This document shows, in pieces, positions 39,546 through 62,338 of a stretch of 64,000 nt of DNA (positions are counted from its first letter, which is position 1; each line of letters starts with the position of its first letter). The translations under genes and the position numbers were made by a program. This stretch comes from Stenotrophomonas maltophilia (GTDB taxonomy: Bacteria; Pseudomonadota; Gammaproteobacteria; Xanthomonadales; Xanthomonadaceae), in contig NZ_LT906480.1 of assembly GCF_900186865.1 (NCBI RefSeq), positions 1,940,001-2,004,000 of the forward strand. The letters run 5' to 3'. The notes beneath the pieces are model-generated. The model did not search any database. It was not told the origin of the DNA and was given only the letters and a program-made list of their open reading frames with translations.

Positions 39546-39647
39546 GGCGGGGTGGGTCCGGTTGCGGGAGACGCCGTAAACCCGTCCTTGGGGGCTTGGC
39601 CGCGGCATCCATGCCGCGGACACTCCCGCAACCGGACCCACCCCGCC
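39546..39647. repeat. Core-and-arms repeat, copy 1
   Basis: A 25-bp left arm (39546-39570, beginning GGCGGGGTGGGTCC) and an exact complementary right arm (39623-39647) enclose a 52-base core at 39571-39622. The core starts ACGCCGTAAACCC and contains GGCATCCATGCC. The core recurs in other gaps; the arm sequence does not. Confidence 0.85.
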
Positions 39648-39689
39648 TTCGACAGTTTCCGCGATCTGTCGGAACGGCGTACTGCTCTG

Positions 39690-39802
39690 GTAGGTGTCGA
39701 CCTTGGTCGACACGGTAGATCCACGCCATGCGTGGATGCTCTTCGATCAATTATCGAAATACTCGAACTCGATGGAGATTCATCCACGCATGGCGTGGAT
39801 CC
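39690..39802. repeat. GTAG-headed palindromes in facing pair
   Basis: GTAGGTGTCGACC-type (39690-39713) and GTAGATCCACGCC-type (39715-39738) short palindromes lie together. The second recurs in inverted orientation at 39781-39802, about 42 bases on. These resemble SMAG-type REP elements, each headed by the tetranucleotide GTAG and able to fold into a small hairpin. The spacer holds nothing I recognise. Confidence 0.7.
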
Positions 39803-39829
39803 ATCAGATTGCGGAAATCTGTCAGAGGT

Positions 39830-40007
39830 GGGGCGGCATGGGCAGGCAGGACCGTTGGCGGCATGGATGCCGCCATCGAGCCCCCATGGGTGAGGGCGCT
39901 TTGCTTGCGAAGCATTGCTTCGCAAGCGCCCGAACGCACAGCCGCCAGCGGCTGGGCCGGACCGCGGAGCGGGGTTTACGGCGTGTCCTGCGTGTCCATG
40001 CCGCCCC
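39830..40007. repeat. Core-and-arms repeat, copy 2 (enlarged core)
   Basis: Arms at 39830-39852 and 39985-40007 (GGGGCGGCATGG and GCAGGAC segments) match as inverted repeats at 19 of 23 positions. The core between them begins and ends like the 52-base core, but an 80-base insertion with its own inverted repeat (CTTGCGAAG...CTTCGCAAG) interrupts it. Confidence 0.7.
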
Positions 40008-40061
40008 GCCAGCCCACGGAATGCCAGCTTTTGCCGTTGCCGTTGCCGTGGCCGTTGAGGT

Positions 40062-40084
40062 TGCCGGCCAGCGGCCGGCACTAC
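40062..40084 (-). repeat. SMAG/REP palindrome
   Basis: On the minus strand this reads GTAGTGCCGGCCGCTGGCC and onward, the same element found four times after pgi. It is preceded by imperfect TTGCCG repeats. Confidence 0.75.
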
Positions 40085-40120
40085 CAGGATGCAGGGCGCA
40101 GCCCTGCCGAAAAACACGCA

Positions 40121-40150
40121 TAAAAAAACAGCAGGCCGAGGCCTGCTGTT
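40121..40150 (-). terminator. Terminator of the tRNA-Arg array
   Basis: AACAGCAGGC pairs with GCCTGCTGTT over a four-base loop. On the minus strand the stem is followed by seven T residues, 10 bases downstream of the last tRNA-Arg. Confidence 0.8.
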
Positions 40151-40159
40151 TCGGTGTAA

Positions 40160-40236
40160 TGGTGCGCCCGGAGAGATTCGAACTCCCGACCGCCTGGTTC
40201 GTAGCCAGGTACTCTATCCAACTGAGCTACGGGCGC
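40160..40236 (-). tRNA. tRNA-Arg (ACG), copy 3 in transcript order
   Basis: On the minus strand a 77-base tRNA folds with acceptor GCGCCCG/CGGGCGC, a D arm, anticodon loop CTACGAA (anticodon ACG), a T arm with GTTCGAA and an encoded CCA end. It is identical to the two copies upstream. Confidence 0.97.
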
Positions 40237-40268
40237 CAATTACATGAACTTGTTGTGCTGACTGTGTA

Positions 40269-40345
40269 TGGTGCGCCCGGAGAGATTCGAACTCCCGACC
40301 GCCTGGTTCGTAGCCAGGTACTCTATCCAACTGAGCTACGGGCGC
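40269..40345 (-). tRNA. tRNA-Arg (ACG), copy 2
   Basis: The sequence is identical to the neighbouring copies, 77 bases with encoded CCA and anticodon ACG. A spacer of 32 bases separates it from copy 3. Confidence 0.97.
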
Positions 40346-40403
40346 GCGGTACACAATCAAATTTTACTGCATTTCCAGCGGCGGATGCTGGAAACCTGTC
40401 GAG

Positions 40404-40480
40404 TGGTGCGCCCGGAGAGATTCGAACTCCCGACCGCCTGGTTCGTAGCCAGGTACTCTATCCAACTGAGCTACGGGCGC
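40404..40480 (-). tRNA. tRNA-Arg (ACG), copy 1
   Basis: The first copy of the array, identical in sequence, with anticodon ACG and encoded CCA. Its first ten bases overlap the last codons and stop codon of the upstream hydrolase gene, so transcription of the two may be linked. Confidence 0.97.
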
Positions 40481-41397
40481 CCTGCGACAGGAGCGGAATT
40501 ATGCGGATGTCGGCGCGTACCGTCAACAGTTTTGTGAAAATTTTCATCCAACTGAATGAAAAAGCTGTCAGCCACGGCATCAGGGGCCTTCAGCCACGCG
40601 AAATGATCGGCGCGCGTGCCCAGTTCCTGCGCGGACAGCACGCGCAGCTGCGCGTCCACATTCGGCAGCTTCGCCAGCAGCGTCTGCATCGATCCGGTGG
40701 GGGCCAACCAGTCGTGTTCCATCAGCACCGCCTGTGCGCTGCCATGCACACGCGCCATCTGCGCATCGAGGTCTTCGTCCATGCCGACGGCGGCGTAATG
40801 GTTGTTCAGGCCGACGCGCGCCCAGTCGGCAATCAGCCCGCGCGCTTCGGTGCCACCGAAGCCGAGGCGACGGCCATGCAGCACGCCCTGGCGCTGTGCG
40901 ATCCACGGCAGGAAGCGGTAGACCAGCGGCAGCAGCCAGCCACGCGGTGGTGGGAATCCGCGCCAGAACGGTGAGCCGCTGGCGGCCAGCCACAGCCGGT
41001 TGAAGTGCTGCGGGTTGCGGCCGGCATGCACGCAGGCCAGCTGCCCGCCCAGGCTATGGCCGCCGATGATCCAGGGCAGGGCGTCGCCTTCGTCATCCGC
41101 TGCGGCCAGGACGGCCTGGCTGGTCGACAGATCCTGTTCGAGTACCTCGCGATAGCCCCAATCCTGCGTGCGTGACGGACGCAGCGAACTGCTGCCATTG
41201 CCTCGCCACTCATGCAGGTACACCGCCACGCCCTTCGCCGCCAGCGCCAACGCCAGTGGCAGGTAGTGACGTGCGGCCACGCCCAGCGCAGGCAACCACA
41301 GCAGGCGCGCGATGGGCTGTGCAGGCACGCAGGCGATCACTTCGTAGCGATGGCCATCAGCGCACTGCACGGCAAGGATGTCGGGTGTGAGGCTCAT
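40471..41397 (-). CDS. Alpha/beta hydrolase
   Basis: From the ATG at 41397 the product has 308 residues. Motifs include LLWLPALGVAARHY (oxyanion region), the nucleophile elbow GGHSLGGQLA, and a late His in TRADHFAWLKAP. It belongs to the family of uncharacterised predicted hydrolases near YheT. The start overlaps the thiD stop by four bases. The TAG stop lies inside the 5' end of the first tRNA-Arg. Substrate unknown. Confidence 0.8.
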   Translation of the reverse strand: MSLTPDILAVQCADGHRYEVIACVPAQPIARLLWLPALGVAARHYLPLALALAAKGVAVYLHEWRGNGSSSLRPSRTQDWGYREVLEQDLSTSQAVLAAADDEGDALPWIIGGHSLGGQLACVHAGRNPQHFNRLWLAASGSPFWRGFPPPRGWLLPLVYRFLPWIAQRQGVLHGRRLGFGGTEARGLIADWARVGLNNHYAAVGMDEDLDAQMARVHGSAQAVLMEHDWLAPTGSMQTLLAKLPNVDAQLRVLSAQELGTRADHFAWLKAPDAVADSFFIQLDENFHKTVDGTRRHPHNSAPVAGRP

Positions 41398-42203
41398 GCG
41401 TGTGGTGCCGCGCCGAAGTGATCCAGCACCAGCACCTCGCTGCGGCCGGGGGCATAGCCCTGCTGCAGGCCGCGTGCAACGTAGTCGATACCGGCTTCGC
41501 AGGCATTGGCCAGGCTCAAGCCGTTGCACAACTGCGCGGCGATGGCCGAGGCCAGCGTGCAGCCGGTGCCATGTGCGTCCAGGGGCAGGCGGGCGTGGAT
41601 GAATTCTTCGCTGCTGACGCCGTCGAAGTAGCGATCGATCACGCGATTGCCCTCATGCAGGTGGCCACCCTTGAGCAGCACTGCGCCGGCACCGAGGTGG
41701 AGCAGGGCCGAGGCGGCCTGTTCTGCGTCTTCGCCGTTGCTGATCTTCCGGCCGACCAGCAGTTCTGCTTCCGGCGTATTGGGGGTGATCAGCGTGGCCA
41801 GCGGGATCAGGCGCTCACGCATGGCCTGCAATGCACTGTCTTCCAGCAGGCGTGCCCCACTGGTGGCGACCATCACCGGATCCAGCACCACGTGTGGCGG
41901 GCGGTGCTTTTCGAGTGCATCAGCGACGGCATGGATCACTTCGGCGTTGGCCAGCATCCCCAGCTTCACCGCGTGGATGTCGAAGTCGTCGAAGCAGGCA
42001 TCCAGCTGCGCGCGCAGGAATTCGATGGGTGGCACGTGCACGGCGATGACGCCGCGGGTGTTCTGCGCGGTCAGTGCAGCAATCGCGGAAAGGCCATGCA
42101 CGCGGTGTGCGGCGAAGGCCTTGAGGTCAGCCTGGATGCCGGCGCCACCGCCGGAGTCGGAGCCGGCGATGGTGAGGGCGGAAACGGGAGTGGTCGGGCT
42201 CAT
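41394..42203 (-). CDS. thiD: Hydroxymethylpyrimidine/phosphomethylpyrimidine kinase
   Basis: The 269-residue product, starting at ATG 42203, phosphorylates HMP and HMP-P in thiamine biosynthesis. It has the ribokinase-fold signatures [22 protein letters not shown] near the N terminus and [18 protein letters not shown] near the C terminus with the catalytic Asp-x-x-Gly-x-Gly motif, and [12 protein letters not shown] in between. The length matches E. coli ThiD. It overlaps the hydrolase gene by four bases. No TPP riboswitch is visible upstream. Confidence 0.96.
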
Positions 42204-42234
42204 CGGTTGATTGTGCCGTGGTCCCGCAGGGGAA

Positions 42235-42258
42235 GGTAGATCCACGCCATGCGTGGAT
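42235..42258 (+). repeat. GTAG-headed palindrome
   Basis: GTAGATCCACGCCATGCGTGG is the same element as at 39715. It sits between thiD and the DUF1275 gene. Confidence 0.75.
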
Positions 42259-42267
42259 GTCCTTGAT

Positions 42268-42936
42268 TCAACACCGCCAACGCGCCCATTGCTGGTACAG
42301 CACATAACCCAGCCCGGTCAGGCCAGTCAGCAGGGCGGGGGCGAGCAGGGCGTCGTACTGCCAGCGCATGAACAGCCAGGCGCCGAGGACGCCGCCGGCG
42401 AGGAAGCCGCTGATGATCAGGCCGCTGAGGGTCAGCCGCCGTACCTGCAGCGGCAGCCCACGCAGCAGGTGGCCGAGGCCGATGCCGAGGTCGGTGAACA
42501 TGCCGCTGAGGTGGGTGGTGCGCACCACTGCGCCACTGAAGGTGGTGGCCATCGCGTTCTGCAGGCCGCAGGCCATGGCGGCGGCCAGCGCGCCCCAGAT
42601 CTGGTGTTGTTCAAAGAGCGGAATGGCCACCAGCAGCAGCGCCGATTCCAGCGCCAGTGCCACGCCATAGCGCCGGCCCAGCTGCAGGGCGCTGTCCTGG
42701 ATCAGCAGGCCGCTGAGCATCGCGCCCAGCGAGAACGCGATCAGCAGCCCCCACAGGTGCCCGACGGCGCGCCAGTCCCCCTGCGCCAGCGCCATGCCCA
42801 ACTGGCTGGTACTGCCGGTCATGTGGCTGACCGCCTGGTGCTCGAAACCGAGGAAGCCGACCACGTTGACCATGCCGGCCACGCACGAGAGCGCGACCGC
42901 GCCGATCCAGACCCAGGTGGGCAGGCGTATTCCCAT
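42268..42936 (-). CDS. DUF1275 (YoaK-type) membrane protein
   Basis: This 222-residue protein has about six membrane segments. Hallmarks are SCVAGMVNVVGFLGFEHQAVSHMTGSTSQLG, then GLQNAMATTFSGAVVRTTHLSG(M)FTDLGIGLG, which define the DUF1275/YoaK family of putative transporters. Its function is unknown. It begins 12 bases after the lipoprotein gene and is probably in its operon. Confidence 0.85.
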   Translation of the reverse strand: MGIRLPTWVWIGAVALSCVAGMVNVVGFLGFEHQAVSHMTGSTSQLGMALAQGDWRAVGHLWGLLIAFSLGAMLSGLLIQDSALQLGRRYGVALALESALLLVAIPLFEQHQIWGALAAAMACGLQNAMATTFSGAVVRTTHLSGMFTDLGIGLGHLLRGLPLQVRRLTLSGLIISGFLAGGVLGAWLFMRWQYDALLAPALLTGLTGLGYVLYQQWARWRC

Positions 42937-42948
42937 CGGCGGGGCCCC

Positions 42949-43455
42949 TCAGAGCTCGCCGAAGCCGCCGTTGAACTGCAGCTCGCTGAAGGTGTTGCTG
43001 GCCGGGTCGAACACCGCGCCCCAGAACTGCGTGCCGCCGTCACAGACGCGGATCGCTTCGCGCGCCGGATTGATGCCGCTGTCGTCGGGCAGGTGGAAGG
43101 CGTTGACGTAGATCAGCCGCTTGCCGGCGCTTTCGATGCCGACGTACTGGCGGTCGAAGTCCAGCACTTTTGGTACCTGTGCCTCCAACGACGACAGCTG
43201 TGCTTCCAGCTGATCGATCTGCTGCCGGCTGGGCGCCCAGTAGCCGCTGACCCGCCCGGCCTCGCGGCCGGGGCTGGCGCGCGAGCAGGTGTCGAGCACC
43301 TGCGCGGCGATGATCGGGCGGGTGACCACCCAGGACTGGCCGGTGCGCTCGGCGGTCGGCACACTGGCCGGGCCGCGCGTGGTGGTGCAGGCACCGAGCA
43401 CGGCTGCGAGGGTGATCGCAGCCGTGGGCAGCAGCAGGCGGGTGCAGCGGTTCAC
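42949..43455 (-). CDS. Hypothetical lipoprotein
   Basis: The 168-residue product has a lipoprotein signal (LLLPTAAITLAAVLGACTTT). The mature protein includes a short coiled stretch (QQIDQLEAQLSSLEAQV) and YVNAFHLPDD, RVCDGGTQFWGAVFDP near the end. I do not recognise a family. It overlaps the end of the phoH gene by four bases (ATGA), so they are co-transcribed. Confidence 0.7.
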   Translation of the reverse strand: MNRCTRLLLPTAAITLAAVLGACTTTRGPASVPTAERTGQSWVVTRPIIAAQVLDTCSRASPGREAGRVSGYWAPSRQQIDQLEAQLSSLEAQVPKVLDFDRQYVGIESAGKRLIYVNAFHLPDDSGINPAREAIRVCDGGTQFWGAVFDPASNTFSELQFNGGFGEL

Positions 43456-44852
43456 AACACCTCCGAAGCGTAATCGGCCAGGCGCGAGCGTTCGCCTCGG
43501 CGCAGGGTGATGTGCGCACTATGCGGCCAGTTCTTGAAACGATCCACCGCGTAGGTCAGGCCCGAGGTGGTCTCGGTCAGGTACGGGGTGTCGATCTGCT
43601 CGACGTTGCCCAGGCAGACGATCTTGGTGCCGGGGCCGGCACGGGTGATCAGCGTCTTCATCTGCTTCGGGGTGAGGTTCTGCGCCTCGTCCAGGATCAG
43701 GTAGCGCGACAGGAAGGTACGGCCGCGCATGAAGTTCATCGAGCGGATCTTGATGCGGCTGGCCAGCAGGTCGTTGGTGGCCTGGCGGCCCCAGGTGCCG
43801 CCTTCCTGGTTGTGCGTGAGCACTTCCAGGTTGTCGGTCAGCGCGCCCATCCACGGCGTCATCTTCTCTTCCTCGGTACCCGGCAGGAAACCGATGTCCT
43901 CGCCGACGCTGACCGTGGCGCGGGTCATGATGATCTCGCGGTAGCGCTGCTGGTCCATCGTCTGCGCCAGCCCGGCGGCCAGTGCCAGCAGGGTCTTGCC
44001 GGTACCGGCGGTACCCAGCAGGGTGACGAAGTCGATCTCCGGATCCATCAGTGCGTTGAGCGCGAAGTTCTGCTCGCGGTTGCGCGCACTGATACCCCAC
44101 ACGGCGTGGCTGCCGTGGCGGAAATCATCGACCAGCGACAGCACTACCTTGCCGTCGCCGACCACGCGGCTGACGCGCAGTTCGACTTCGTCTTCGCCGG
44201 GCAGGTAGACGTACTGGTTCGGGTACCACTCCTCGCCGTCCTGCGCCTGGATTTCGTAATGGCTGCGGCCCTTGTCGCTCCAGCTGCGCAGGTCGTCGCC
44301 GTGGCGCTTCCAGAAGTCTTCCGGCAGCTCGGTGGCGCCGGTGTAGAGCAGGCTGAAATCGTCCAGCGCGCGGTCGTTTTCGTAGTCCTCGGACACGATG
44401 CCGGCGATGGCGGCCTTGATCCGCAGGTTGATGTCCTTGGAAACGAACACCACCGGCAGGTCCGGCGTTTCTTCCTTCAGCGCCAGGATCGCGCCAAGGA
44501 TGGCATTGTCGGGAATGACCTTGCCAAAGCTCTTGCCCGCGTCGAAGTGGCTGGTCTGGAAGCGCAGCTTGCCGGCGCTCTGCTTGCCGCGCAGCTGCAG
44601 GCCGTTGGGGCGCTGCAGCGGAATGCCGTCGGCCAGGTTGTCCAGGCCGGATTCCTGCACCAGCTCGTTGAGGAAGCGGCTCACCTGGCGGGCGTTGCGG
44701 CTCGCTTCGGAGGTGCCCTTCTTGCCGTTGTCCAGCTCCTCGATCACCTGCATGGGCAGGTAGATGTCGTGCTCCTCGAATTTGAACAGCGCGGTCGGAT
44801 CGTGCATCAGCACGTTGGTATCCAGCACGTAGATGCGCTTGCCTCGGGTCAT
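43452..44852 (-). CDS. PhoH-family ATPase with N-terminal PIN domain
   Basis: From the ATG at 44852 the product has 466 residues. An N-terminal PIN RNase domain starts YVLDTNVLMHDPT with further acidic residues in VIEELDNGKKG. A PhoH ATPase domain follows with Walker A LLGTAGTGKTLLALA, Walker B RYLILDEAQNLTPKQMKTL and the RAGPGTKIV motif. This PIN-PhoH (PhoH2-like) layout is associated with RNA unwinding and cleavage. It is encoded upstream of and overlapping the lipoprotein gene. Confidence 0.93.
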   Translation of the reverse strand: MTRGKRIYVLDTNVLMHDPTALFKFEEHDIYLPMQVIEELDNGKKGTSEASRNARQVSRFLNELVQESGLDNLADGIPLQRPNGLQLRGKQSAGKLRFQTSHFDAGKSFGKVIPDNAILGAILALKEETPDLPVVFVSKDINLRIKAAIAGIVSEDYENDRALDDFSLLYTGATELPEDFWKRHGDDLRSWSDKGRSHYEIQAQDGEEWYPNQYVYLPGEDEVELRVSRVVGDGKVVLSLVDDFRHGSHAVWGISARNREQNFALNALMDPEIDFVTLLGTAGTGKTLLALAAGLAQTMDQQRYREIIMTRATVSVGEDIGFLPGTEEEKMTPWMGALTDNLEVLTHNQEGGTWGRQATNDLLASRIKIRSMNFMRGRTFLSRYLILDEAQNLTPKQMKTLITRAGPGTKIVCLGNVEQIDTPYLTETTSGLTYAVDRFKNWPHSAHITLRRGERSRLADYASEVL

Positions 44853-44936
44853 CGTCGATTCCTGGTTACGGACAGGGAAAAACCACCACGGCCTGCTGCG
44901 GGGCAGGGTGATGGCAGACACAGTAGGCAGTGGGAC

Positions 44937-45416
44937 TCACTTGGACTGGGAGGCCTTCAGTTCGGCGAGAACGGCATCGGCATGGCCGGCAACCTTGACC
45001 TTGCGCCAGGACTGCACGATGCGGCTGTCGGGGGAAATCAGGAAGGTGCTGCGTTCGATGCCACGTACCTGCTTGCCGTACATGTTCTTCATCTTGATCA
45101 CGTCGAAGGCGCTGCACAGCGCTTCGTCGCCATCGCTGACCAGCGGGAAGTTGAAGCCCTGCCTGGCACAGAAGTTGTCGTGCGACTTCACCGAGTCGCG
45201 AGAGACGCCGAGCACGACCGCGCCGGCCTTCTTGAACTTCGGCAGCAGGGCGTTGAAGTCGATGCCTTCGGTGGTGCAGCCGGGAGTGCTGTCCTTGGGG
45301 TAGAAGTACAGCACCAGCCACTGGCCGGCATAGTCGCCGAGAGTGGCCTGGTTGCCACCGGACAGCGCCAGCGGCAGGGAGAGGGTGGTGCTGTCCAGGG
45401 TATCGCCGTTGTTCAT
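44937..45416 (-). CDS. bcp: Thiol peroxidase, Bcp/PrxQ family peroxiredoxin
   Basis: From ATG 45416 the product has 159 residues. The peroxidatic Cys lies in YFYPKDSTPGCTTEGIDF and an Arg in GVSRDSVKSH supports catalysis. The usual resolving Cys five residues later is replaced (CTTEGI), so this is a one-Cys variant or one that resolves through another Cys (NFCARQG, ALCSAF). It reduces hydroperoxides using thioredoxin. The bcp-gcvR-dapA-bamC order is conserved with E. coli. Confidence 0.92.
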   Translation of the reverse strand: MNNGDTLDSTTLSLPLALSGGNQATLGDYAGQWLVLYFYPKDSTPGCTTEGIDFNALLPKFKKAGAVVLGVSRDSVKSHDNFCARQGFNFPLVSDGDEALCSAFDVIKMKNMYGKQVRGIERSTFLISPDSRIVQSWRKVKVAGHADAVLAELKASQSK

Positions 45417-45508
45417 GAGGTCCTTCTGTCGAGCCTGGGTTGTTTCTACGACAATTGCATGAAACGCCACGCGCCCGTGAGAGGCGCGCGAAAAATCCGC
45501 ACTCCCAA

Positions 45509-46069
45509 TCAGAATTTCATCGGGTCCATGATCGCGTCCAGGTTCAGGTGGTCGCAGAACTCAAGGAAATCGTCGCGCAGCGCGGCGATGTGCATGTTGG
45601 CCGGCACGCCGATGGTGACCTGTGCACTGAACATTTCCGCACCGGTCTGCATGGCGCGGTAGCGCGTGCTCTGCAGGTTCTCGATGGTGATGCCCTGGCG
45701 GTCGAAGAAATCGGCCAGCTGGAACAGGATGCCCGGCTTGTCGGCGGCGATCACTTCGACGATGTACGGCAGCAGGTTGGACTGCGCCTGCTTGGCCGCG
45801 GTGCGGTACCAGACCAGCTTCAGGCCTTCCTCGCGCTCCAGCCGGGTCAGCATCGCCTCGAGCTTGGCCACCGAGTCCCAGGAGCCGGTGGCCAGGGCGG
45901 TGACCGACACATCGCGGCCGACCGTGGCCAGGCGTGCGTCCACCAGATTGCAGCCGCTGTCGGCGATGCGGCGGGTGACGGACAGCAGGGGGGACTCCGG
46001 ATGCGTCGTATAGGCGTTGATCAGGAGGTGGTTTTCGCTCGGCGCGGGGCGCGGGGTGGTGTCGGTCAA
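45509..46069 (-). CDS. gcvR: GcvR-like ACT-domain regulator
   Basis: The 186-residue product has two ACT domains (NHLLINAYTTHPESPLLSVTRRI; LLPYIVEVIAADKPGILFQLADFFDRQ). This matches GcvR, the glycine cleavage repressor partner. I place the start at TTG 46069, because the reading upstream is unlike the family and there is no in-frame ATG in range. A weak GGAA precedes it. It is divergent from dapA over 164 bases, as in E. coli. The regulatory targets here are inferred. Confidence 0.8.
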   Translation of the reverse strand: MTDTTPRPAPSENHLLINAYTTHPESPLLSVTRRIADSGCNLVDARLATVGRDVSVTALATGSWDSVAKLEAMLTRLEREEGLKLVWYRTAAKQAQSNLLPYIVEVIAADKPGILFQLADFFDRQGITIENLQSTRYRAMQTGAEMFSAQVTIGVPANMHIAALRDDFLEFCDHLNLDAIMDPMKF

Positions 46070-46233
46070 GGCGATTCCGGGTAATGCATGCGTTAGTCTG
46101 AATGCCCGCCAGAGGCGGGGATCCACCGGTGTCCAGCATACTTGCCCGTGCTTTCGCGCCGCAAGTAACATTCAGGTCGCCCCCGGCCTTTCGTGGCGGG
46201 CGTTTTCCCTTTCCAGCCAAGAGCAGCACGTCC

Positions 46234-47127
46234 TTGTCCCTTTCCGGCCTCATCACCGCGCTGGCGACCCCGTTCCGGGCCGACGGCGCCCTCGATCCCG
46301 ACGGTTGGCAGCGCCTGCTGCACCTGCAACTGGAAGGTGGCGTCCATGGCGTTGTCGTTGCCGGCTCGACCGGCGAAGCGGCAACCCTCACCGATGCCGA
46401 GTACGACCTGCTGCTGGCCAGCGCGGTCGAACGCATTGGCGGCCGCATCCCGGTCATGGCCGGCACCGGCCTGTCCGGTACCGCCAAAACCATCGAACAG
46501 ACCCGTCGTGCGGCCGCGCTTGGCGCCAGCCATGCACTGGTGGTCACCCCGCCTTACGTGAGGCCGACCCAGGCCGGCCTGATTGCCCATTATCGTGCGG
46601 TCGCCGACCAGGGCGGGTTGCCGGTCGTGCTGTACAACGTGCCCGGCCGTACCGGTTGCGACATGCAGCCGGAGACCGTGGCCGAACTGGCCAGCCACCC
46701 CAACATCGTCGGCATCAAGGAGGCGGTGGGCGACACCGGCCGGGTGCAGGCGCTGCTCGCACTGCGCAGCCCGCAGTTCGCCGTGCTCAGCGGCGACGAC
46801 GGTACGGCCGCGCGTTCGATCCGGGCCGGTATCGACGGCCTGATCTCGGTCGGCTCCAATGTGCTGCCCGGCGCCTACCGCCGCATGTGCGAGCTGGCCG
46901 CCGCCCATGACCACGAAGCCACCGAGTCCTGGGATGCGCGCCTGCAGCCGTTCCATGATTTCTGCGGTGTTGAACCGAACCCGATTCCGGTCAAGGCGCT
47001 GCTGCGCCGTATCGGCATCGGCCATGACCTGCGCCTGCCGCTGCTGCCGCTGTCGGCGCCGCACCACGCGGCCGCCGACCATCTTGCCGGCGACATCGCC
47101 GCCCTTGAAGCCCTTTCCAGCCACTGA
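46234..47127 (+). CDS. dapA: 4-hydroxy-tetrahydrodipicolinate synthase
   Basis: The 297-residue product condenses pyruvate and aspartate semialdehyde in lysine and peptidoglycan biosynthesis. Catalytic features are visible: [20 protein letters not shown] with the active Tyr, and the Schiff-base Lys in [12 protein letters not shown]. The start is TTG at 46234, giving [14 protein letters not shown], which matches the family N terminus. There is no in-frame ATG nearby. It is followed by bamC after 32 bases. Confidence 0.94.
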
Positions 47128-49892: not shown

Positions 49893-49937
49893 CAGGACAC
49901 GCAAGAGCCCCCATGGATGGGTTTACGGCGTGTCCTG
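49893..49937. repeat. Core-and-arms repeat, copy 3 (truncated)
   Basis: Short arms CAGGAC (49893-49898) and GTCCTG (49932-49937) enclose 33 bases. They match one half of the 52-base core (AGCCCCCATGGATGGGTTTA, then CGGCGT). Confidence 0.6.
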
Positions 49938-50070: not shown

Positions 50071-50145
50071 TGGCGCTCCCTAGGGGACTCGAACCCCTGT
50101 TTTAGCCTTGAGAGGGCCACGTCCTAACCACTAGACGAAGGGAGC
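50071..50145 (-). tRNA. tRNA-Glu (CTC)
   Basis: On the minus strand the 75-base tRNA has acceptor GCTCCCT/AGGGAGC, a G discriminator, encoded CCA, and anticodon loop CTCTCAA (anticodon CTC). The T arm is GGGG-TTCGAGT-CCCC. Confidence 0.96.
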
Positions 50146-54403: not shown

Positions 54404-54784
54404 ATGCACCTGTCCCTGCTCAAGACCAAGATCCACCGCGCCACCGTCACCCATTCCGAGCTGAACTACGAAGGCTCGATCGCCATCGATGACAACCTGC
54501 TGGCTGCCACCGGCATCCGCGAGTTCGAGCAGGTGCACATCTGGGACGTGACCAACGGTGCGCGCTTCTCGACCTATGCCATCCGTGCCGAAGCCGGCAG
54601 CGGCGTTGTATCGCTCAACGGTGGCGCCGCGCGCCACGTGCAGGTCGGTGACATCATCATCATTGCCGCGTTCGCCAGCATGACCGAGCAGGAAGCCGAC
54701 AGCTTCAAGCCGAAGCTGGTGTACGTTGATGGCAAGAACCAGATCACCCACACCAACGACACGATCCCGACCCAGGCCGCATGA
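54404..54784 (+). CDS. panD: Aspartate 1-decarboxylase proenzyme
   Basis: The 126-residue proenzyme makes beta-alanine for PanC. The self-cleavage site Gly-Ser is at residues 24-25 in YEGSIAID, giving the pyruvoyl group. Other motifs are [17 protein letters not shown], and [12 protein letters not shown]. Its stop overlaps the pgi start by four bases. Confidence 0.97.
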
Positions 54785-56295
54785 CAACGAACAACGGATT
54801 CGACTCGCTGCATTCCCACGCCCAGCGCCTGAAGGGCGCAAGCATCCCCGGCCTGCTCGCCGCCGAACCCGGCCGCGTGCAGGACCTGGCGCTGCGGGTC
54901 GGTCCGTTGTACGTCAACTTCGCCCGGCAGAAATACGATGCCGCGGCGTTGCAGGCATTGCTGGCGCTGGCTGCCGACCGTGATGTCGGTGGTGCCATCA
55001 CCCGCCTGTTCCGTGGCGAGCAGGTCAACCTGACCGAAGGTCGCGCCGCGCTGCACACCGCACTGCGCGGCGACGTGGTCGATGCGCCGGTGGCGGCCGA
55101 GGCCTATGCCACCGCGCGCGAGATCCGCCAGCGCATGGGCGTGCTGGTGCGCGCGCTGGAAGACAGTGGCGTCACCGACGTGGTCAGCGTCGGCATCGGT
55201 GGTTCCGACCTTGGCCCGCGCCTGGTCGCCGACGCGCTGCGTCCGGTCAGCGGTGCGCGCCTGCGCGTGCATTTCGTATCGAACGTGGACGGCGCGGCCA
55301 TGCAGCGTACGCTGGCCACGCTGGATCCGGCCAAGACCGCCGGCATCCTGATCTCCAAGACCTTCGGCACCCAGGAAACCCTGCTCAACGGCCAGATCCT
55401 GCACGACTGGCTGGGGGGCAGCGACCGCCTGTACGCGGTCAGTGCCAATCCGGAACGTGCCGCCAAGGCCTTTGCCATCGCCGCCGATCGTGTGCTGCCG
55501 ATGTGGGATTGGGTCGGCGGCCGCTATTCGCTGTGGTCTGCGGTCGGTTTCCCGATCGCGCTGGCGATCGGCTTCGAGCGCTTTGAACAGCTGCTGGAAG
55601 GTGCTGCGCAGATGGATGCGCATGCGCTGGATGCACCGCTGGAGCGCAACCTGCCGGTGCTGCACGGCCTGACCGACATCTGGAACCGCAACCTGCTGGG
55701 CCATGCCACGCATGCGGTGATGACCTACGACCAGCGCCTGGCGCTGTTGCCGGCCTACCTGCAGCAGCTGGTGATGGAAAGCCTGGGCAAGCGTGTGCAG
55801 CGTGATGGCCAGCCGGTCACCACCGATACCGTGCCGGTGTGGTGGGGCGGGGCGGGCACCGATGTGCAGCACAGCTTCTTCCAGGCACTGCACCAGGGCA
55901 CCAGCATCGTTCCGGCCGACTTCATCGGCTGCGTGCACAACGACGATCCCTACACGATCAATCATCAGGCCCTGCTGGCCAATCTGCTGGCGCAGACCGA
56001 AGCACTGGCCAATGGCCAGGGCAGCGACGACCCGCACCGTGATTACCCGGGCGGCCGCCCGAGCACGCTGATCCTGCTCGACGCGCTGACCCCGCAGGCG
56101 CTGGGTGCGCTGATCGCCATGTACGAACACGCCGTGTACGTGCAGTCGGTGATCTGGAACATCAACGCCTTCGACCAGTTCGGTGTCGAACTGGGCAAGC
56201 AGCTGGCCAGCGGCCTGCTGCCGGCACTGCAGGGCGAGGATGTGGCCGTTGCCGACCCGATGACCCGCGAGATCCTTGCGCAGCTGAAGCGCTGA
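54781..56295 (+). CDS. pgi: Glucose-6-phosphate isomerase
   Basis: The 504-residue product interconverts G6P and F6P. PGI signatures are present: [45 protein letters not shown], and the C-terminal [11 protein letters not shown]. It overlaps panD by four bases; that link is a xanthomonad arrangement and joins central metabolism to CoA supply. A string of REP elements follows the stop. Confidence 0.96.
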
Positions 56296-56302
56296 GGCTC
56301 TG

Positions 56303-56452
56303 GTAGTGCCGGCCGCTGGCCGGCAACCTCATGAACGATTGAAGCATCACCTGGATGCCGGCCAGCGGCCGGCACTACCGGAGCGGATGGGTTGCCGGCC
56401 AGCGGCCGGCACTACCAGAGCGGACGGGTTGGCGGCCAGCGGCCGGCACTAC
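56303..56452. repeat. Cluster of four SMAG-type REP palindromes
   Basis: The GTAG-headed element GTAGTGCCGGCCGCTGGCC occurs at 56303-56325, and in inverted orientation at 56356-56378, 56393-56415 and (variant) 56432-56452. The first two can pair into a long hairpin. SMAG elements of this form are abundant in S. maltophilia. They separate the convergent pgi and response-regulator genes and may act as terminators or mRNA end stabilisers. Confidence 0.85.
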
Positions 56453-56470
56453 CATGAAGGGCGTGGTGCC

Positions 56471-57034
56471 TCAGCGGCTCGGGTCGCGTTCCGGGCTGGG
56501 CCGCTTGGCCAGCTTGCGCTGCAGCGAGCGCCGGTGCATGCCGAGCAGGCGCGCGGCTGCCGACACGTTGCCGCCGGTCTCGTGCATCGCCTGCTGGATG
56601 TGTTCCCACTGCAGGCGGCTGATCGGTGTCATCGCGTCGGGCACTTCCATTTCGCCATCGTCGGCCGGGCCGTCATCCTCCTCGCCCAAAGCGCGAAGGA
56701 TCATCGGTACCGTGGCTGGCTTGGGCAGGTAATCGTCCGCACCGAGCTTGATCGCTTCCACCGCGGTGGCGATGCTGGCGTAGCCGGTCACCAGCAGGAT
56801 GCGCATGTCCGCGCGCAGCGCACGCAGCGGCTGGATCAGCGCCAGGCCGGAATCGCTGCCCAGCTTCAGGTCGATCAGGGCGAACGCGGGTGGGTGCTGG
56901 CGCGCCAGTGCCAGCGCGCTGGCGGCATCCTGCGCGGTCTGCGTTTCAAGCCCCTTGCGGGCCAGGCTGCGCTGCAGGGTGCGCAGGTACAGTTCGTCGT
57001 CGTCGACCAGCAGGCCGAGGGTTGAGGCGCTCAT
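56471..57034 (-). CDS. regA: RegA/PrrA-type response regulator
   Basis: From the ATG at 57034 the product has 187 residues. The receiver domain has LLVDDDELYL, the phosphorylated Asp in FALIDLKLGSDSG, and LLVTGYASIATAVEAIKLGADDYLPKP. A Fis-like helix-turn-helix follows (MHETGGNVSAAARLLGMHRRSLQRKL), typical of RegA/PrrA/ActR. It overlaps the sensor kinase by four bases. It likely tunes respiration in response to redox state. Confidence 0.9.
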   Translation of the reverse strand: MSASTLGLLVDDDELYLRTLQRSLARKGLETQTAQDAASALALARQHPPAFALIDLKLGSDSGLALIQPLRALRADMRILLVTGYASIATAVEAIKLGADDYLPKPATVPMILRALGEEDDGPADDGEMEVPDAMTPISRLQWEHIQQAMHETGGNVSAAARLLGMHRRSLQRKLAKRPSPERDPSR

Positions 57035-58257
57035 GGGGTTTCCTCGCGTGGGGCCAGCGGCAGGCGGAAGCCGACGCGGCTGCCGGCCCCCTGGGCCGGG
57101 CGCATCCACATCTCGCCGTCGAGGCGTTCGATCGTGGCATGGGACAGGGCCAGGCCGACCCCCATGCCTTCACTCTTGCTGCTACCGAACAGCTTGCCCG
57201 GCAGCACCGCGGCGCGCGCGTTGAAGCCGTGGCCGTAGTCGCGTACTTCGCCGATCAGATCGTCGCCTTCGATGCGCAGGTCCAGGTCCACGCGCGGCCG
57301 GCCGGCCTGTTCGCCGGCATCGGCGGCATTGTTGAGCAGGACCATCAGCAGGTGGCCCACGCCCGGGTCGAGCGGCAGCCGCAGCGGCGCATCATCGTTG
57401 CGGTGCAGGTCGATGGTCGGTCGCACCAGGCGCCATTGCTCCAGCACCTGCTGCGCGCTGGAATGGCTGCGTCCGGGCGCATCGGCCGAGGCCGGTGCGG
57501 CCAGCGCCAGCACGCGCTCACGGCACTGCACCAGCAGCTCGCGCAGGGTTTCCATGTCCTCGCGCACTTCCGGCTCTTCACTGCGTTCGGCCACGTCGTC
57601 GGCGAGCAGGGTCATGGTTGCCAGCGGCGTGTTCAGTTCATGCGCCACCGAGGCGGCATGGGTGGCCAGGGCGACGATGCCCTCGTTGCGGGCGAAGCGT
57701 TCGCGCAGGGCCGAGAGTTCCAGTTCGCGCTGGCGCAGCGCCAGCGCCAAGCGGGTGGAGAAGGCCAGTACGACCGCCGCGGAAATCAGGAAATTGGCGA
57801 CCACGCCCCAGCGGTTGAGGTCCTGCGCGCGGAAATAGCCGTCCGGCAGGGGCTGGCCGAAGATGCCGCTGGCGGCGTAGCCGAGCAGGCAGGCCAGCGC
57901 GACCGCCAGCGCCCAGCGCAGGGGCAGGGCGAACGCGGCCAGTGCGATCAGGATCAGGAACAGCGAGCTGAACGGATTGGCCATGCCACCGCTCCAGCCG
58001 ACCATCCAGGTCAGGATGATCACGTCCACCAGGATGTGGCCGAATGCAGTCAGCGGTGCGGTGTCGGCCGCTTCCGGGCGCAGCTGGGTATAGATGTTGA
58101 ACAGGGCCAGCACCGCCACGCCGGCCCACAGCGGCAGCTGCGGCAACGGCAGCCCCAGCACCCAGGTGGCGACCAGGATGGTGGCGGCCTGGCCGCCTAC
58201 TGCAAGCCAGCGCAGGCTGCACAGGGTTCGGAGAAACGGGGCGTCGGGACCGGTCAT
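57031..58257 (-). CDS. regB: RegB/PrrB-type redox sensor histidine kinase
   Basis: The 408-residue kinase has about six membrane helices. The loop motif [11 protein letters not shown] is the GGXXNPF quinone-binding motif of RegB. The H box is [15 protein letters not shown] Cys 39 residues beyond the phospho-His ([10 protein letters not shown]) matches redox-active Cys265 of Rhodobacter RegB. The ATP-binding domain has LLNNAADAG and the [16 protein letters not shown] motif. It should sense quinone redox state and phosphorylate the adjacent regulator. Confidence 0.93.
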
Positions 58258-58371
58258 TCACGCTCATCGTATGCGTTCGCGCGTGACCGTGCCTGCGACA
58301 ATCGGCCGCAGCCGTGCCGCCGGCTGAATGCGAGTCACCCCGAATGCAGGGCCGGGCGGTAGAATGCGCCC

Positions 58372-59637
58372 ATGCACGACGCCGTCACCCGCCCGACTCC
58401 GCCCTCCGATGCCACTGCCTGGCCGCGCCGCCAGACCCATGCCGTCCAGATCGGCGGAGTCACCGTGGGCGGAGGCAAGCCGGTGGTGGTGCAGTCGATG
58501 ACCAACACCGACACCTCCGACGTCGCCTCCAGCGTGAAGCAGGTGGCCGAGTTGTGGCGTGCCGGTTCGGAGATGGTGCGGCTGACCGTCAATACCGTGG
58601 AAGCCGCTGCGGCGATCCCGCGCATTGTCGACAAGCTGGCGATGATGGGCATCGACGTGCCGCTGATCGGCGATTTCCACTACAACGGCCACCAGCTGCT
58701 GACCGCCGAACCGGCATGTGCCGAAGCACTGGCCAAGTACCGCATCAACCCGGGCAACGTCGGCTTCGGCAAGAAGAAGGATCTGCAGTTCGCCCAGCTG
58801 ATCGAATTCGCCATCCGTTACAACAAGCCGGTGCGCATCGGCGCCAACTGGGGCTCGCTGGACCAGGCCCTGGCGGCGAAGCTGATGGACGAGAACAACC
58901 TGCGCGAACAGCCCTGGGACGCCGGCCGCGTGCTGCGCGAGGCGCTGATCCGCTCGGCGCTGGATTCGGCCGAGCAGGCGGTGGAGCTGGGCCTGCCGCG
59001 CGATCGCATCGTGCTGTCGGCCAAGGTCAGTGGCGTGCAGGAGCTGATCGCGGTGTACCGCGACCTGGCGCAGCGCTCCGACTTCGCCCTGCACCTGGGC
59101 CTGACCGAGGCCGGTATCGGCAGCAAGGGCATCGTGGCATCGTCCGCGGCGCTGGGCGTGCTGCTGCAGGAAGGCATCGGTGACACCATCCGGATCTCGC
59201 TGACCCCGGAACCGGGCCAGTCGCGTACGCAGGAAGTGATCGTCGCCCAGGAACTGCTGCAGACCACCGGGCAGCGTGCCTTCACGCCGCTGGTCACGGC
59301 CTGCCCGGGCTGCGGCCGCACCACCTCCGAGTTCTTCCAGGAGCTGGCCAAGGTGGTGCAGAACCACGTGCGCGAGAAGATGCCGCTGTGGAAGATCCAT
59401 CACCCGGGTGCGGAGAACATGACCCTGGCGGTGATGGGCTGCATCGTCAACGGACCGGGTGAGTCGCGCCATGCCAACATCGGCATCTCGCTGCCGGGCA
59501 CGGGTGAGACGCCTGCGGCACCGGTGTTCGTCGATGGCGAGAAGAAGGTGACCCTGCGTGGCGACAACATCGCCCAGGAGTTCGTCGCCCTGATCGACGA
59601 TTACGTCGAACACACGTATGTCCGAAGCGCCGGATAA
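58372..59637 (+). CDS. ispG: 4-hydroxy-3-methylbut-2-enyl diphosphate synthase (flavodoxin)
   Basis: The 421-residue enzyme acts in the MEP pathway for isoprenoids. Starting motifs are [17 protein letters not shown], then DFHYNGHQ and [10 protein letters not shown]. The three cluster-binding Cys lie in [14 protein letters not shown] and [17 protein letters not shown]. The length is that of the long proteobacterial IspG form with an insertion. The PAP2 gene overlaps its 3' end by 20 bases. Confidence 0.96.
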
Positions 59638-60367
59638 GCCTGCGATCCTCGCCGCACCGGAGTCCGCCTCCGGCTTCCGCCACTGGATGGCGCGCAACGC
59701 CTGGCGCCTGGTCCTGTTGTTCGGTGGCGTGCTGCTGCCGTTGGCAGGCTTTGTTGCCCTGGCGGACGAAGTGCACGAGTTTGAATCGTTCCATTTCGAC
59801 GCGCCCCTGCTGTGGCAGATGCATGGCCTGCATTCGCCGTGGCTGGACCGCTTCTTCGTGCTCATCTCGAAACTGGGCTACGAGTGGTTCCTGATCCCGG
59901 CCGACGTGCTGATCATCGGCGTGCTGCTGGGCTACCGGCGCTGGCGCGAGGCGACCTTCGTCGCGGTCAGCTTCGTAGGGTCGGCGCTGCTGAACATGGG
60001 CAGCAAGCAGTTCTTCCAGCGGCAGCGCCCCAGCCTGTGGGAATCGATCGCGCCGGAATCGACGTTCAGCTTCCCCAGCGGGCATGCGATGGGTTCGATG
60101 ACCCTTGCCGTGACCTTGGTACTGCTCGCCTGGAACACCCGTTGGCGCTGGCCGGTACTGATGCTGGCACCCGCGTTCAGCCTGCTGGTAAGCGTGTCGC
60201 GGGTCTATCTGGGGGTGCATTACCCCTCCGACATCCTGGCCGGATGGTGTGCCGCGCTGGTTTGGGTGGTAGGGTGCTATCTGGTCATGTTCAGTCGCCG
60301 GCACCCTTGGCGACGTCACGGCCCGCCGCCAGCGAAGGCCAGCGAAGCACCAACACAGGGGGTTTGA
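59618..60367 (+). CDS. PAP2-family membrane phosphatase
   Basis: The 249-residue protein has about six membrane helices and the three-part PAP2 signature: [19 protein letters not shown], and [16 protein letters not shown]. It probably dephosphorylates lipid phosphates such as undecaprenyl or phosphatidyl glycerophosphate. It overlaps ispG by 20 bases, so the two are coupled; because ispG makes isoprenoid precursors, undecaprenyl pyrophosphate recycling is a natural guess. Confidence 0.9.
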
Positions 60368-60567
60368 CGTGGATGGCCCTTGAGGGACGTCTACGTGATA
60401 GATCAGTTGTTTCGTTGCAGCAGGTTCTGCAAGACAGGGGGCAAGCACAACGCGCGGTACTGTGATGCGCAAGGCAGATCGCCGATGCCGCATTCCGGAC
60501 GCGCTTGCAGGGTATCGGCACCCTGCCTAGCTTGACCTGCAATGGCCGCATTCGAAGAGGTACATGA

Positions 60568-61215
60568 ATGACGATTCGAGTCTACCTGGTGGATGACCAC
60601 GCGCTGGTCCGCACCGGTATGAAGATGATTCTGTCGGGGGAAACCGACATCGAGGTGGTGGGCGAAGCCGAGACCGGCGAAGACGCGCTGCGTGAAGTCC
60701 GCCAGCTGCTGCCGGATGTGGTGCTGTGCGACCTGCACCTGCCGGGCGTGAGCGGCATGGAAGTGACCGAGCGCATCGTCCGCAGCCACCGCAATACCCG
60801 CGTGGTGATCGTGTCGGTACTGGAAGACGGCCCGCTGCCCAAGCGCCTGCTCGAAGCCGGTGCGGCCGGTTACATCGGCAAGGGCTGCGATGCGCAGGAA
60901 CTGCTGCGTGCGGTGCGTGATGTGGCGGCCGGTCGTCGCTACCTGGGCACCAGCATCGCGCAGAATCTGGCGCTGTCGACAGTGGAAGGCAATGGTTCGC
61001 CGTTCGACAACCTGTCGCCGCGCGAGCTTGAGGTGGCGCTGTTGCTGACCCAGGGCCTGCGCCAGGAAGACATCGCGCGGCGCCTGAGCCTGAGTGCGAA
61101 GACGGTGAACACGCACAAGGCGCGGCTGTTCGAGAAGATGGGGATCCACGACAACATCGCGCTGGCGCGGATGGCCAGCCAGTACGGGTTGGTGGATCCG
61201 GCACGGCCGCTGTAA
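60568..61215 (+). CDS. gacA: GacA/UvrY-type response regulator
   Basis: The 215-residue protein has a receiver domain (YLVDDHALVRTGM, phosphorylated Asp in VVLCDLHLPGVSGME, GAAGYIGKG) and a LuxR-type helix-turn-helix (LSPRELEVALLLTQGLRQEDIARRLSLSAKTVNTHKARLFEKMG). The sequence IAQNLALS between them is typical of GacA/UvrY. It probably regulates small-RNA-controlled traits. The 200 bases before it hold an inverted repeat at about 60512-60531 and no other gene. Confidence 0.88.
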   Translation: MTIRVYLVDDHALVRTGMKMILSGETDIEVVGEAETGEDALREVRQLLPDVVLCDLHLPGVSGMEVTERIVRSHRNTRVVIVSVLEDGPLPKRLLEAGAAGYIGKGCDAQELLRAVRDVAAGRRYLGTSIAQNLALSTVEGNGSPFDNLSPRELEVALLLTQGLRQEDIARRLSLSAKTVNTHKARLFEKMGIHDNIALARMASQYGLVDPARPL

Positions 61216-61242
61216 GGGGTCCGGCCAACGGCTGAGCCCCTC

Positions 61243-61314
61243 TGCGCAGGGGACGCCGTGAATCCATCCCTGGAGGCTCGGGCGCGCCATCCATGGCGCT
61301 TACGCCCCTGCGCA
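61243..61314. repeat. Core-and-arms repeat, copy 4
   Basis: Arms TGCGCAGGGG (61243-61252) and CCCCTGCGCA (61305-61314) enclose a 52-base core (61253-61304) that starts ACGCCGTGAATCC. The core length equals that of copies 1 and 5; the arms are unrelated in sequence. Confidence 0.8.
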
Positions 61315-61412
61315 ATCCCTCCGCAGGGCCACGGACGGTTTCCGTGCGCCGCCACTGCGGAATGAAGAAGGAAGAGCAGGAGCGGGTCGCGCGCTTTGCG
61401 CACTCGTCGCCC

Positions 61413-61485
61413 GGGGTCGGATCCCTTTCCCGGTGGGAAAGGGCTCTGACCCCTGATGATGCCGGAGCCGAGCGTGGGCTCGGCT
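61413..61485. repeat. GATCCC/GACCCC inverted repeat and small hairpin
   Basis: GGGGTCGGATCCCTTTCCC faces GGGAAAGGGCTCTGACCCC around GGT (61413-61452). A second hairpin AGCCGAGC/GCTCGGCT lies at 61466-61485, just before the eda stop. The first motif is a familiar dispersed repeat in Stenotrophomonas. Confidence 0.7.
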
Positions 61486-61502
61486 CTGCACCTTTGTCGG
61501 GC

Positions 61503-62162
61503 TCAGTGGCCGCGTACGCGCTGGATGATCTTGGCGGCGTCTGCGGCGCTGGCGCGCACCTTGTCCCATTCGCCGTTGGCGATCCAGTTGCCCGGCACCA
61601 TCCACGAACCACCGATGCAGACCACGTTCTTCTGCTCGAGGTATTCGGCGGCGGTGTTCTCGGTGATGCCGCCGGTCGGGCACAGCTTCAGGTCCGCCAC
61701 CGGGCCGGCCAGTCCCTTGATCATTGCCAGGCCACCCACAGCCGTGGCCGGGAACAGCTTGCACACGCGGAAGCCGCGGGCGTAGAGCGACAGCAGCTCG
61801 GTCGGGGTGGCCGCACCCGGCACCACCGGCAGCGGTGCGGCGGCCAGTGCATCAGCCAGTGCCGGCGGCGTACCCGGGGTCACCAGGAAGTCCGCACCCG
61901 CATCGATCGACTGCTGCATCTGCTCCACGGTCAGCACCGTACCGGCACCCACCACCACGTCCGGCAGCTCGCGCTTGAGCATCGCCAATGCTTCCATCGC
62001 CACTGGCGTACGCAGGGTCAGCTCGATCGCCGGCAAGCCACCTTCCAGCAGCGCCGCACTGACCGCCCGCGCCTGGTCCAGCGTATGAATCGTCACCACC
62101 GGCAGGATGCCCGCCGCACGCAACAGCTCCGCCGCCTTCACCTGATGTTGTTCGATACCCAT
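61503..62162 (-). CDS. eda: KDPG aldolase (2-dehydro-3-deoxyphosphogluconate aldolase)
   Basis: From ATG 62162 the product has 219 residues. It cleaves KDPG to pyruvate and G3P in the Entner-Doudoroff route. Visible motifs are AIELTLRTP with catalytic Glu, FLVTPGTPP, GAATPTELLSLYARGF with FRVCKLFPA holding the Schiff-base Lys, and CPTGGITENTAAEYL. It is downstream of edd, separated by 206 bases containing a core-and-arms repeat. Confidence 0.95.
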   Translation of the reverse strand: MGIEQHQVKAAELLRAAGILPVVTIHTLDQARAVSAALLEGGLPAIELTLRTPVAMEALAMLKRELPDVVVGAGTVLTVEQMQQSIDAGADFLVTPGTPPALADALAAAPLPVVPGAATPTELLSLYARGFRVCKLFPATAVGGLAMIKGLAGPVADLKLCPTGGITENTAAEYLEQKNVVCIGGSWMVPGNWIANGEWDKVRASAADAAKIIQRVRGH

Positions 62163-62234
62163 GCTTTTGCCCTTGCCTTTTGCTCTTCTTGATTCAGTGG
62201 CCGCAGCGCAAATGACGCGCCGGGAATTGTCCAA

Positions 62235-62338
62235 GGGCAGTAGAGCGCCCTGGCCGGGACCGTGAGCGGCATGGATGCCGCGACCGAGCCCCCATGGATG
62301 GGTTTACGGCGTGTCCCGGCCAGGGCGCTCTACTGCCC
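62235..62338. repeat. Core-and-arms repeat, copy 5
   Basis: Arms at 62235-62260 (starting GGGCAGTAGAGCGCCC) and 62313-62338 are exact 26-bp complements. The 52-base core at 62261-62312 is the reverse-complement orientation of copy 1 and matches it at about 45 of 52 positions. It lies between edd and eda. Confidence 0.85.

Follow-up and report, generated by a model that had tools for sequence, protein, structure and literature searches.

Dispersed repeats with a palindromic fold have been described in Yersinia, where a 168-base RU-2 repeat has been printed by Delihas under the remark that De Gregorio et al. call it YPAL (PMC2759123), and where the passages on YPAL/RU-2 in a further report present it as mobile and intergenic, with target duplications of 3–26 bp and with filled and empty sites (PMC2229807). 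The small RNA (sRNA) Ysr224 (Yersinia sRNA 224; Rfam RF02770) is mentioned in passages of two papers as present in multiple copies in Y. ruckeri (PMC12112432) and as among the most prevalent annotated sRNAs (PMC9029176). Here we analyse a family of intergenic repeats in 64,000 nucleotides of the Stenotrophomonas maltophilia genome (contig NZ_LT906480.1, positions 1,940,001 to 2,004,000, referred to as the window), in which a nearly constant 52-base core lies between complementary arms, and we follow this element through the genome, the genus, the family and the class. We favour, with moderate confidence, the reading that the element is a palindromic repeat akin to YPAL/RU-2, non-autonomous and probably mobile, whose arms would be kept matched by the handling of a folded single strand.

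The core is what ties the element to YPAL. An earlier note, made from the letters of the window, knew of no description of the rule it proposed, but novelty in this sense is not supported: the element shares its core with Yersinia YPAL/RU-2, and this core has relatives in RF01731 and RF02770. The first 28 core bases of the RU-2 complement, taken from the part of PMC2759123 that prints the repeat, recur unchanged in two loci from other genera of the family (L288 in genome G132 and L322 in genome G159), and 20–27 of them match in 66 S. maltophilia copies, 20–28 in 77 copies from other genera, and 21, 24 and 24 in the three complete copies of the window. Over the whole core, identity to RU-2 is 27–35 of 52 in seven examples, compared without gaps although RU-2 is one base longer. 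Like YPAL/RU-2, whose printed sequence has a span of 53, the element is built around a double hairpin, is intergenic and dispersed, and is not A+T-rich (G+C content of 0.72 in one copy). However, at about 104 bp it falls short of the 168 bp of YPAL/RU-2, and whereas the stems of RU-2 are imperfect, with 6 bp next to the core, its arms are near-perfect and differ among copies. The element is thus a shorter, near-perfectly paired, arm-variable relative of YPAL. A literature search with the core string, judged by titles, found no published report of the repeat in Stenotrophomonas or Xanthomonas.

Comparison with the RNA families gives a similar mixture of likeness and difference. As in the TwoAYGGAY motif (RF01731), two AYGGAY-type loops extend from a junction whose outer stem is poorly conserved, but most element copies fall below the RF01731 cut-off, the second-loop stem is longer in Rfam, and the passages devoted to TwoAYGGAY do not present it as a dispersed repeat (PMC4333381). 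RF01731 has five matches in the S. maltophilia genome, one of them over the cut-off (45.6 against 43 bits), and three of the five are element copies read on the opposite strand. In the window no Rfam family except tRNAs matched over its cut-off, RF01731 giving no match there; with laxer settings and 251 bases given, RF01731 appears on the strand opposite the core. The core can be read within the RF02770 consensus in core-strand orientation, and laxer settings gave nine core-strand matches in six loci, but Ysr224 is named as an sRNA, not as a repeat, and all element matches are below its 70-bit cut-off (best, 34.0 bits). A further parallel, the coding palindromes of nematomorph mitochondria, differs in lying within genes and in another kind of genome, and has to our knowledge no constant core. 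What it has in common with the element is long perfect inverted repeats kept in evolution, as set out in parts of PMC6649704.

In the window, a 13-base core probe (ACGCCGTRAAHMC) matches exactly at just five places, the same five, to within a few bases, at which the earlier note had reported at least five copies; with one mismatch allowed, shuffles average 0.63 matches and none of 100 reaches five. Three copies have the exact 52-base core described in that note (copies 1, 4 and 5, at 39571, 61253 and 62300), and their mismatch-free arms adjoining the core, of 25, 10 and 26 bp, agree with the 10–26 bp it gave. Copy 1 (plus strand) consists of a 25-bp left arm (39546–39570), a 52-base core with two hairpins (39571–39622) and a right arm (39623–39647) that is the perfect complement of the left. 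Copy 5 (62235–62338, minus strand), in the gap between edd and eda, has its core at 62261–62312 between 26-bp arms without mismatches (62313–62338 and 62235–62260). Copy 4 (61243–61314, plus strand; core, 61253–61304) has perfect arms of 10 bp and looks truncated, because the arms of its orthologues in loci L069, L072 and L080 are 27–28 bp long. In copy 2 (39827–40010, minus strand; core start, 39984), 26-bp arms with 3 mismatches (left, 39985–40010; right, 39827–39852) enclose a span of 132 in which an 80-base insert interrupts the core. Copy 3 (49893–49937, minus strand; placed at 49931) is a remnant that keeps hairpin 1 and has lost hairpin 2, with 10-bp arms and a span of 25. Among the four window copies that were folded, RNA z-scores are −8.9 for the copy at 39546 and −9.8 for that at 62235, and are weaker for those at 61243 (−2.2) and 49893 (−1.4). 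Three tRNA genes in a row with equal scores (40163–40480) adjoin copies 1 and 2, and one tRNA gene (50074–50145) adjoins copy 3.

The same architecture recurs throughout the 5,004,261-base S. maltophilia genome, where the probe occurs exactly at 88 places (46 forward, 42 reverse) and the reversed probe, as a control, at none. The span from arm to arm is exactly 52 bases in 66 of the 88 copies and in 77 of the 80 kept from other genera of the family, for which the script retained spans of 48–140 only, and the constancy of core length proposed in the earlier note is to this extent upheld. In 78 of the 88 copies the arms reach 20 bp or more with no more than 5 mismatches, and in 17 of these they match perfectly; arm length is mostly 24–28 bp, the longest being 38 bp (5 mismatches) in this genome and up to 41 bp (6 mismatches) elsewhere. 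Complete copies fold into a long stem followed by a junction that bears two short hairpins, the first almost constant and the second a free stem with a constant loop. A GG at positions −4/−3 and a CC at 54/55, in the inner part of the arms, are constant to the same degree as the core. At least two RTCCNT motifs, which read ANGGAY on the other strand, are found in 65 of the 66 S. maltophilia cores and 75 of the 77 other-genus cores of 52 bases; the first two are spaced by 23 bases in 56 and 44 of these, respectively, and otherwise by 4 or 27. The N of the motif varies in hairpin 1 and is A in all 66 S. maltophilia cores in hairpin 2, and no covariation of core positions 7 and 26 was apparent.

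Of the remaining copies, four share one insertion sequence in the core and the others are interrupted, truncated or poorly matched. The end of that insertion sequence (TGAAGTGACCCCC...) follows the same core position at 671346, 697775, 3263550 and 4111703 (C1 coordinates), and the copy at 246154 (C1) carries a short footprint of it; insertion sequences seem to target the hairpin loop. The insert of about 80 bases in window copy 2, which lies in the loop of hairpin 1 and contains CCGGCCCAGCCGCTGGCGGC, has related counterparts in seven other S. maltophilia copies (1158841, 1743270, 2183548, 2311663, 3550035, 4202201 and 4799797), and a second type (GCTTGCTCGTGTGCGC...) lies in hairpin 2 of other copies, so that repeats are nested within repeats. 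At locus L250 (G148:C1), tandem partial units of about 68 bases, each of the left arm and the start of the core, look as if the element had expanded by slippage.

The earlier note held that the arms differ completely among copies, which is true within the window and fails genome-wide, where arms are often common to several copies. The 25-base arm of copy 1 recurs, with at most 3 mismatches, in 15 of the 66 S. maltophilia copies of span 52 (itself counted), and single-linkage clustering at up to 5 of 25 differing positions places these 66 in clusters of 38, 16 and 3 with nine singletons. Copy 1 carries a common arm type, and copies 4 and 5 carry rare ones: the nearest other 25-base left flank is 11 differences away for the copy at 61253 (of whose flank 10 bases are arm) and 5 for that at 62300. 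Arms are thus complementary, as the note had it, without being unshared. Among the fetched copies of single genomes of other genera, mean arm identity is lowest at 0.45 in G159 (7 copies, no two of them close) and highest at 0.77 in G143 (20 copies). In other families of the class, 24 loci yielded 21 elements whose arms are quite different and yet matched over 18–33 bp with 0–4 mismatches; their span, which depends on the pairing cut point, is 52 in 12 of the 21 and otherwise 47–56.

That the arms remain complementary while their sequence changes is borne out at two scales. In an alignment of 40 diverse sequences spanning the family, 94.0% of cells pair, against 64.8% in shuffles, and cells with both sides changed number 398 against 122. 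The covariation score of 0.705 was reached by none of 500 shuffles, which give 0.175, and was not approached by slid controls (at most 0.118). In the consensus fold both sides have changed in 33 of 42 pairs. The outer helix has hardly any one-sided wobble changes and varies by whole Watson–Crick replacement. Between close copies, the co-varying mutations that the earlier note had proposed to look for are present: S. maltophilia copies that differ at 1–4 arm positions show 279 double Watson–Crick changes and 230 one-sided changes, in 192 pairs that are not independent of each other.

The mismatches that persist in the arms lean towards one strand. Counted on the core strand over the inner 22–24 arm pairs, the Stenotrophomonas set, which also holds a few other loci fetched with it, has 55 A·C and 11 G·T among 116 mismatches (3333 pairs, 152 distinct elements); the other genera of the family have 53 and 3 of 62 (1910 pairs, 80 elements). 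The other families of the class have, on the core strand, 9 and 3 (21 elements). When each distinct context is counted once, the Stenotrophomonas and other-genus sets together give 95 A·C against 14 G·T. An A·C mismatch on the core strand is a G·T or G·U wobble on the opposite strand, and the directions of change that could be resolved in the Stenotrophomonas set appear to be G>A in 25 cases and T>C in 15, against C>T in 5 and A>G in 4. These counts are non-independent through relatedness; chance is nevertheless an unlikely cause of the lean because separate sets agree. Within the S. maltophilia genome the numbers are small, and the lean shows no clear dependence on gene context.

Copies less than 2.5 kb apart are inverted with their cores facing each other in all 25 pairs of the S. 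maltophilia genome, in 16 of 16 in G066 and in 11 of 11 among the G044 copies listed, both of the same genus. No pairs occur among the 34 copies of G132, from another genus; pairs in other-genus loci comprise 7 core-facing inverted, 2 head-to-tail and 2 outward, and other families add 1 more inverted pair. The intergenic gaps are often mirror-like mosaics, in inverted order from each gene, both in S. maltophilia pairs and at sites A and B (loci L149–L208); their parts are GGCAGGGCTGCGCCCTGC, AGCAAC tracts, the element, GTAG repetitive extragenic palindromes (REPs) and GGGGTCAGATCC palindromes, the pair at 3700187–3700492 being an example. Repeats similar to GGGGTCAGATCC are also present between the two members of some element pairs. 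None of the 88 copies overlaps a gene called by a crude gene caller.

Orthologous sites give some indication of how copies change. Copy 5 lies between an edd-like dehydratase gene (62369–63970, minus strand, start placed at the longest open reading frame; Pfam PF00920 and PF24877) and, downstream of it, eda, which encodes KDPG (2-keto-3-deoxy-6-phosphogluconate) aldolase (61503–62162, minus strand; PF01081) and lies between copies 4 and 5, the protein families having been confirmed in the window by Pfam. The element is present upstream of eda, in the edd–eda gap, in 28 of 80 fetched loci, L082 counted, and its arms there differ strongly between groups and yet are matched inside each copy. Five alleles without the core (L077, L085, L086, L098 and L105) keep left-arm sequence and have lost the right arm. 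A FastTree built from edd and eda fragments (printed without support values) places these alleles within the occupied group, and they are joined at or near short direct repeats, so that they are best read as deletions, of which there would be at least three; L077 and L105 have occupied sisters on the tree, which L085/L086 and L098 lack. Another two sites, each represented by 30 loci with the S. maltophilia genome included, show among the loci listed different arm types within the same outer flank and several loci without a core. Exchange of whole elements is likely, because different arm types occupy one flank at orthologous sites, and L070 is an apparent chimera of two arm types. One of the fetched loci, L137 (JAHREJ010000009.1), is titled Bacillus subtilis SK7B5; its eda protein is 88% identical to that of the window and it carries a Stenotrophomonas-type element, and the assembly is probably mislabelled or contaminated.

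In the element as described here, the nearly constant 52-base centre forms a pair of hairpins whose hexaloops both read ANGGAY on the strand opposite the written core, the double hairpin topping a long stem of nearly free sequence. In the model that we favour, a copy would bring its arms along as it spreads or is exchanged, and these would drift afterwards; the whole palindrome would spread first and then be subject to drift, exchange and deletion. Some process keeps the arms matched, and hairpin-templated repair, which the earlier note had raised, is possible. Pairing would be restored because one specific strand, that with ANGGAY, is processed in a folded, single-stranded form, most likely as single-stranded DNA; one-sided mutations would then be tolerated mainly as G·T wobbles on it, and would later disappear, be compensated or be transferred to the other arm by template switching. 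With such a strand-specific stage of single-stranded DNA, both the compensation and the strand lean would be explained.

Several observations weigh against this model. In hairpin 1 of the core, G·T alternatives occur on the core strand, contrary to a simple one-strand rule, and in the alignment further pair types are no more numerous than in shuffles (75 against 70.9; 80 of 500 shuffles reach the observed number). Part of the variation is explained by exchange of whole elements, which leaves arms matched with no need for repair. No transposase has been linked to the element, with no convincing copy at 52 Y1-transposase loci (most of the other Y1 matches in 61 genomes were not fetched), and no clean empty site with a target duplication was seen, duplications not having been searched for. 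The replication-strand bias that single-strand transposition would produce is also inconsistent: with the terminus where skew supports it, at 2.5–2.8 Mb, 25 of 38 unpaired S. maltophilia copies are concordant (p = 0.07), placing the terminus at 2.2–2.4 Mb gives a suggestive p = 0.005–0.014, and three other genomes, with termini assumed near the middle, are not significant (21 of 35, 14 of 27 among the matches listed, and 13 of 34; one of these genomes, G044, had 49 of its 94 sites listed). Finally, no Rfam family matched over its cut-off in 40 further loci picked for the element, and on the long stem unrelated microRNA models reach scores similar to those of RF01731 and RF02770. Rfam scores alone therefore prove little, and the alignment of the letters weighs more.

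One alternative is that selection acts on RNA: the ANGGAY strand would be transcribed, its hexaloops would bind CsrA/RsmA, whose CsrA consensus is ANGGA, and the stem would drift by compensated changes through G·U. This is attractive because both hexaloops are of ANGGAY type and lie on the wobble-tolerant strand, and because CsrA binding has been proposed for TwoAYGGAY in the passages on that motif (PMC4333381); the RF01731 matches also lie on this strand. Transcription, however, leaves no mark on the orientation of the copies. Of the 88 S. maltophilia copies, again by the crude gene caller, 34 lie between convergent and 8 between divergent genes, and those between co-directional genes split 23 and 23 by orientation; the 38 unpaired copies give 14 convergent, 5 divergent, and 9 and 10 co-directional. 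Element orientation thus shows no dependence on the direction of transcription. A function in the sense of the mRNA was likewise rejected, no orientation preference being seen with this caller. In addition, the asymmetry persists at edd–eda, where by gene order the core strand, not the ANGGAY strand, is the sense strand (10 A·C against 1 G·T, with 11 other mismatches, in 27 elements). We regard selection on RNA as improbable, though still worth weighing.

We would give no greater credence to pure hairpin-templated correction, in which template switching copies a mutation from arm to arm with no selection. The slight excess of double over one-sided changes between close copies agrees with it, as does locus L075, where an A–T pair has become G–C on both arms and close relatives retain A–T, and template switching is described as keeping stems matched in parts of PMC8794818. 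Without a strand-specific step, however, such correction predicts A·C and G·T in equal numbers, not 95 against 14, and the conservation of the core would need another cause.

It is quite unlikely that the core was inserted into pre-existing terminators or other dyads, a terminator origin being an alternative that the earlier note had itself raised. YPAL targets are said, in the relevant part of PMC2229807, to span or adjoin dyad symmetry, and the spacers of paired copies do contain other palindromes, some of them terminator-like by eye. On the other hand, no T run follows the arms by eye, and scans of two regions found no terminator-like site, the tool covering loops of 3–8 bases only. In the edd–eda set and the further-site loci listed, no allele without the core has both full arms joined, and the inner-arm GG and CC are as constant as the core.

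A reading raised in the earlier note, that the core inserts with an inverted copy of flanking DNA, is very improbable. It would fit the retention of left-arm sequence without the right arm in the five core-less edd–eda alleles, but these lie inside the occupied group, two of them with occupied sisters, and are joined at or near direct repeats; in addition, arms are common to many copies and different arm types occupy one flank. The comparison of orthologous sites that the note proposed returned alleles that read, on a two-gene tree, as deletions rather than as pre-insertion sites, and we dropped the interpretation of these alleles as sites carrying the left arm alone before insertion.

We consider it least probable of all that the element belongs to the GTAG REPs or forms the terminal repeat of a RAYT/TIRYT transposase, since, despite its REP-like setting with inverted pairs and the abundance of REPs, RAYTs and terminal inverted repeats reported for S. 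maltophilia in parts of PMC3733652 and PMC2817692, it has no GTAG tag, the three S. maltophilia Y1 transposases found are flanked by GTAG-type repeats, and the syntenic Y1 gene of relatives carries GGGGTCAGATCC repeats. The 52 Y1 loci without a convincing copy comprise 3 from S. maltophilia and 29 and 20 from relatives; they include L218, with one weak match (span 115, score 12.5), and L229, whose core-like motif was not borne out by the arm test. In L212, L214, L218, L221 and others, the syntenic transposase has self-complementary GGGGTCAGATCC repeats on both sides, and by map position and the GGGGWSAS motif it is probably the TIRYT 1152 family treated in a portion of PMC3733652.

Searches with a covariance model (E ≤ 1e-4, under stricter filters at the cost of weak matches, and with at most 35 or 15 candidates scored per genome) found the element in 30 of 119 genomes and 15 of 54 genera of the family, and in 45 of 274 genomes and 40 of 221 genera of the class, S. 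maltophilia included in each. One 71-base query had no match in plasmids and phages. A broader view, which we hold only tentatively, is that a single Gammaproteobacteria-wide element has been split as YPAL, Ysr224 and TwoAYGGAY: its 52-base centre would be specified, its stem sequence-free, and its arms matched by a strand-specific process independent of transcription, in which one strand is handled as folded single-stranded DNA.

In summary, one core joins three things that have been named separately, namely a repeat known from Yersinia, an 'sRNA' family of high prevalence and an orphan RNA motif. Because the three meet in this core, which a covariance model finds in 40 of 221 sampled genera of the class, many annotated sRNA copies may be repeats. 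With a fixed centre and long arms that change together, the element provides a natural test of how inverted repeats are matched in cells: each genome provides, in dozens of near-perfect stems that vary freely, a ready record of how compensated changes arise, and the strand-specific mismatches left over offer a handle on whether selection on RNA, single-stranded DNA or template switching is responsible.

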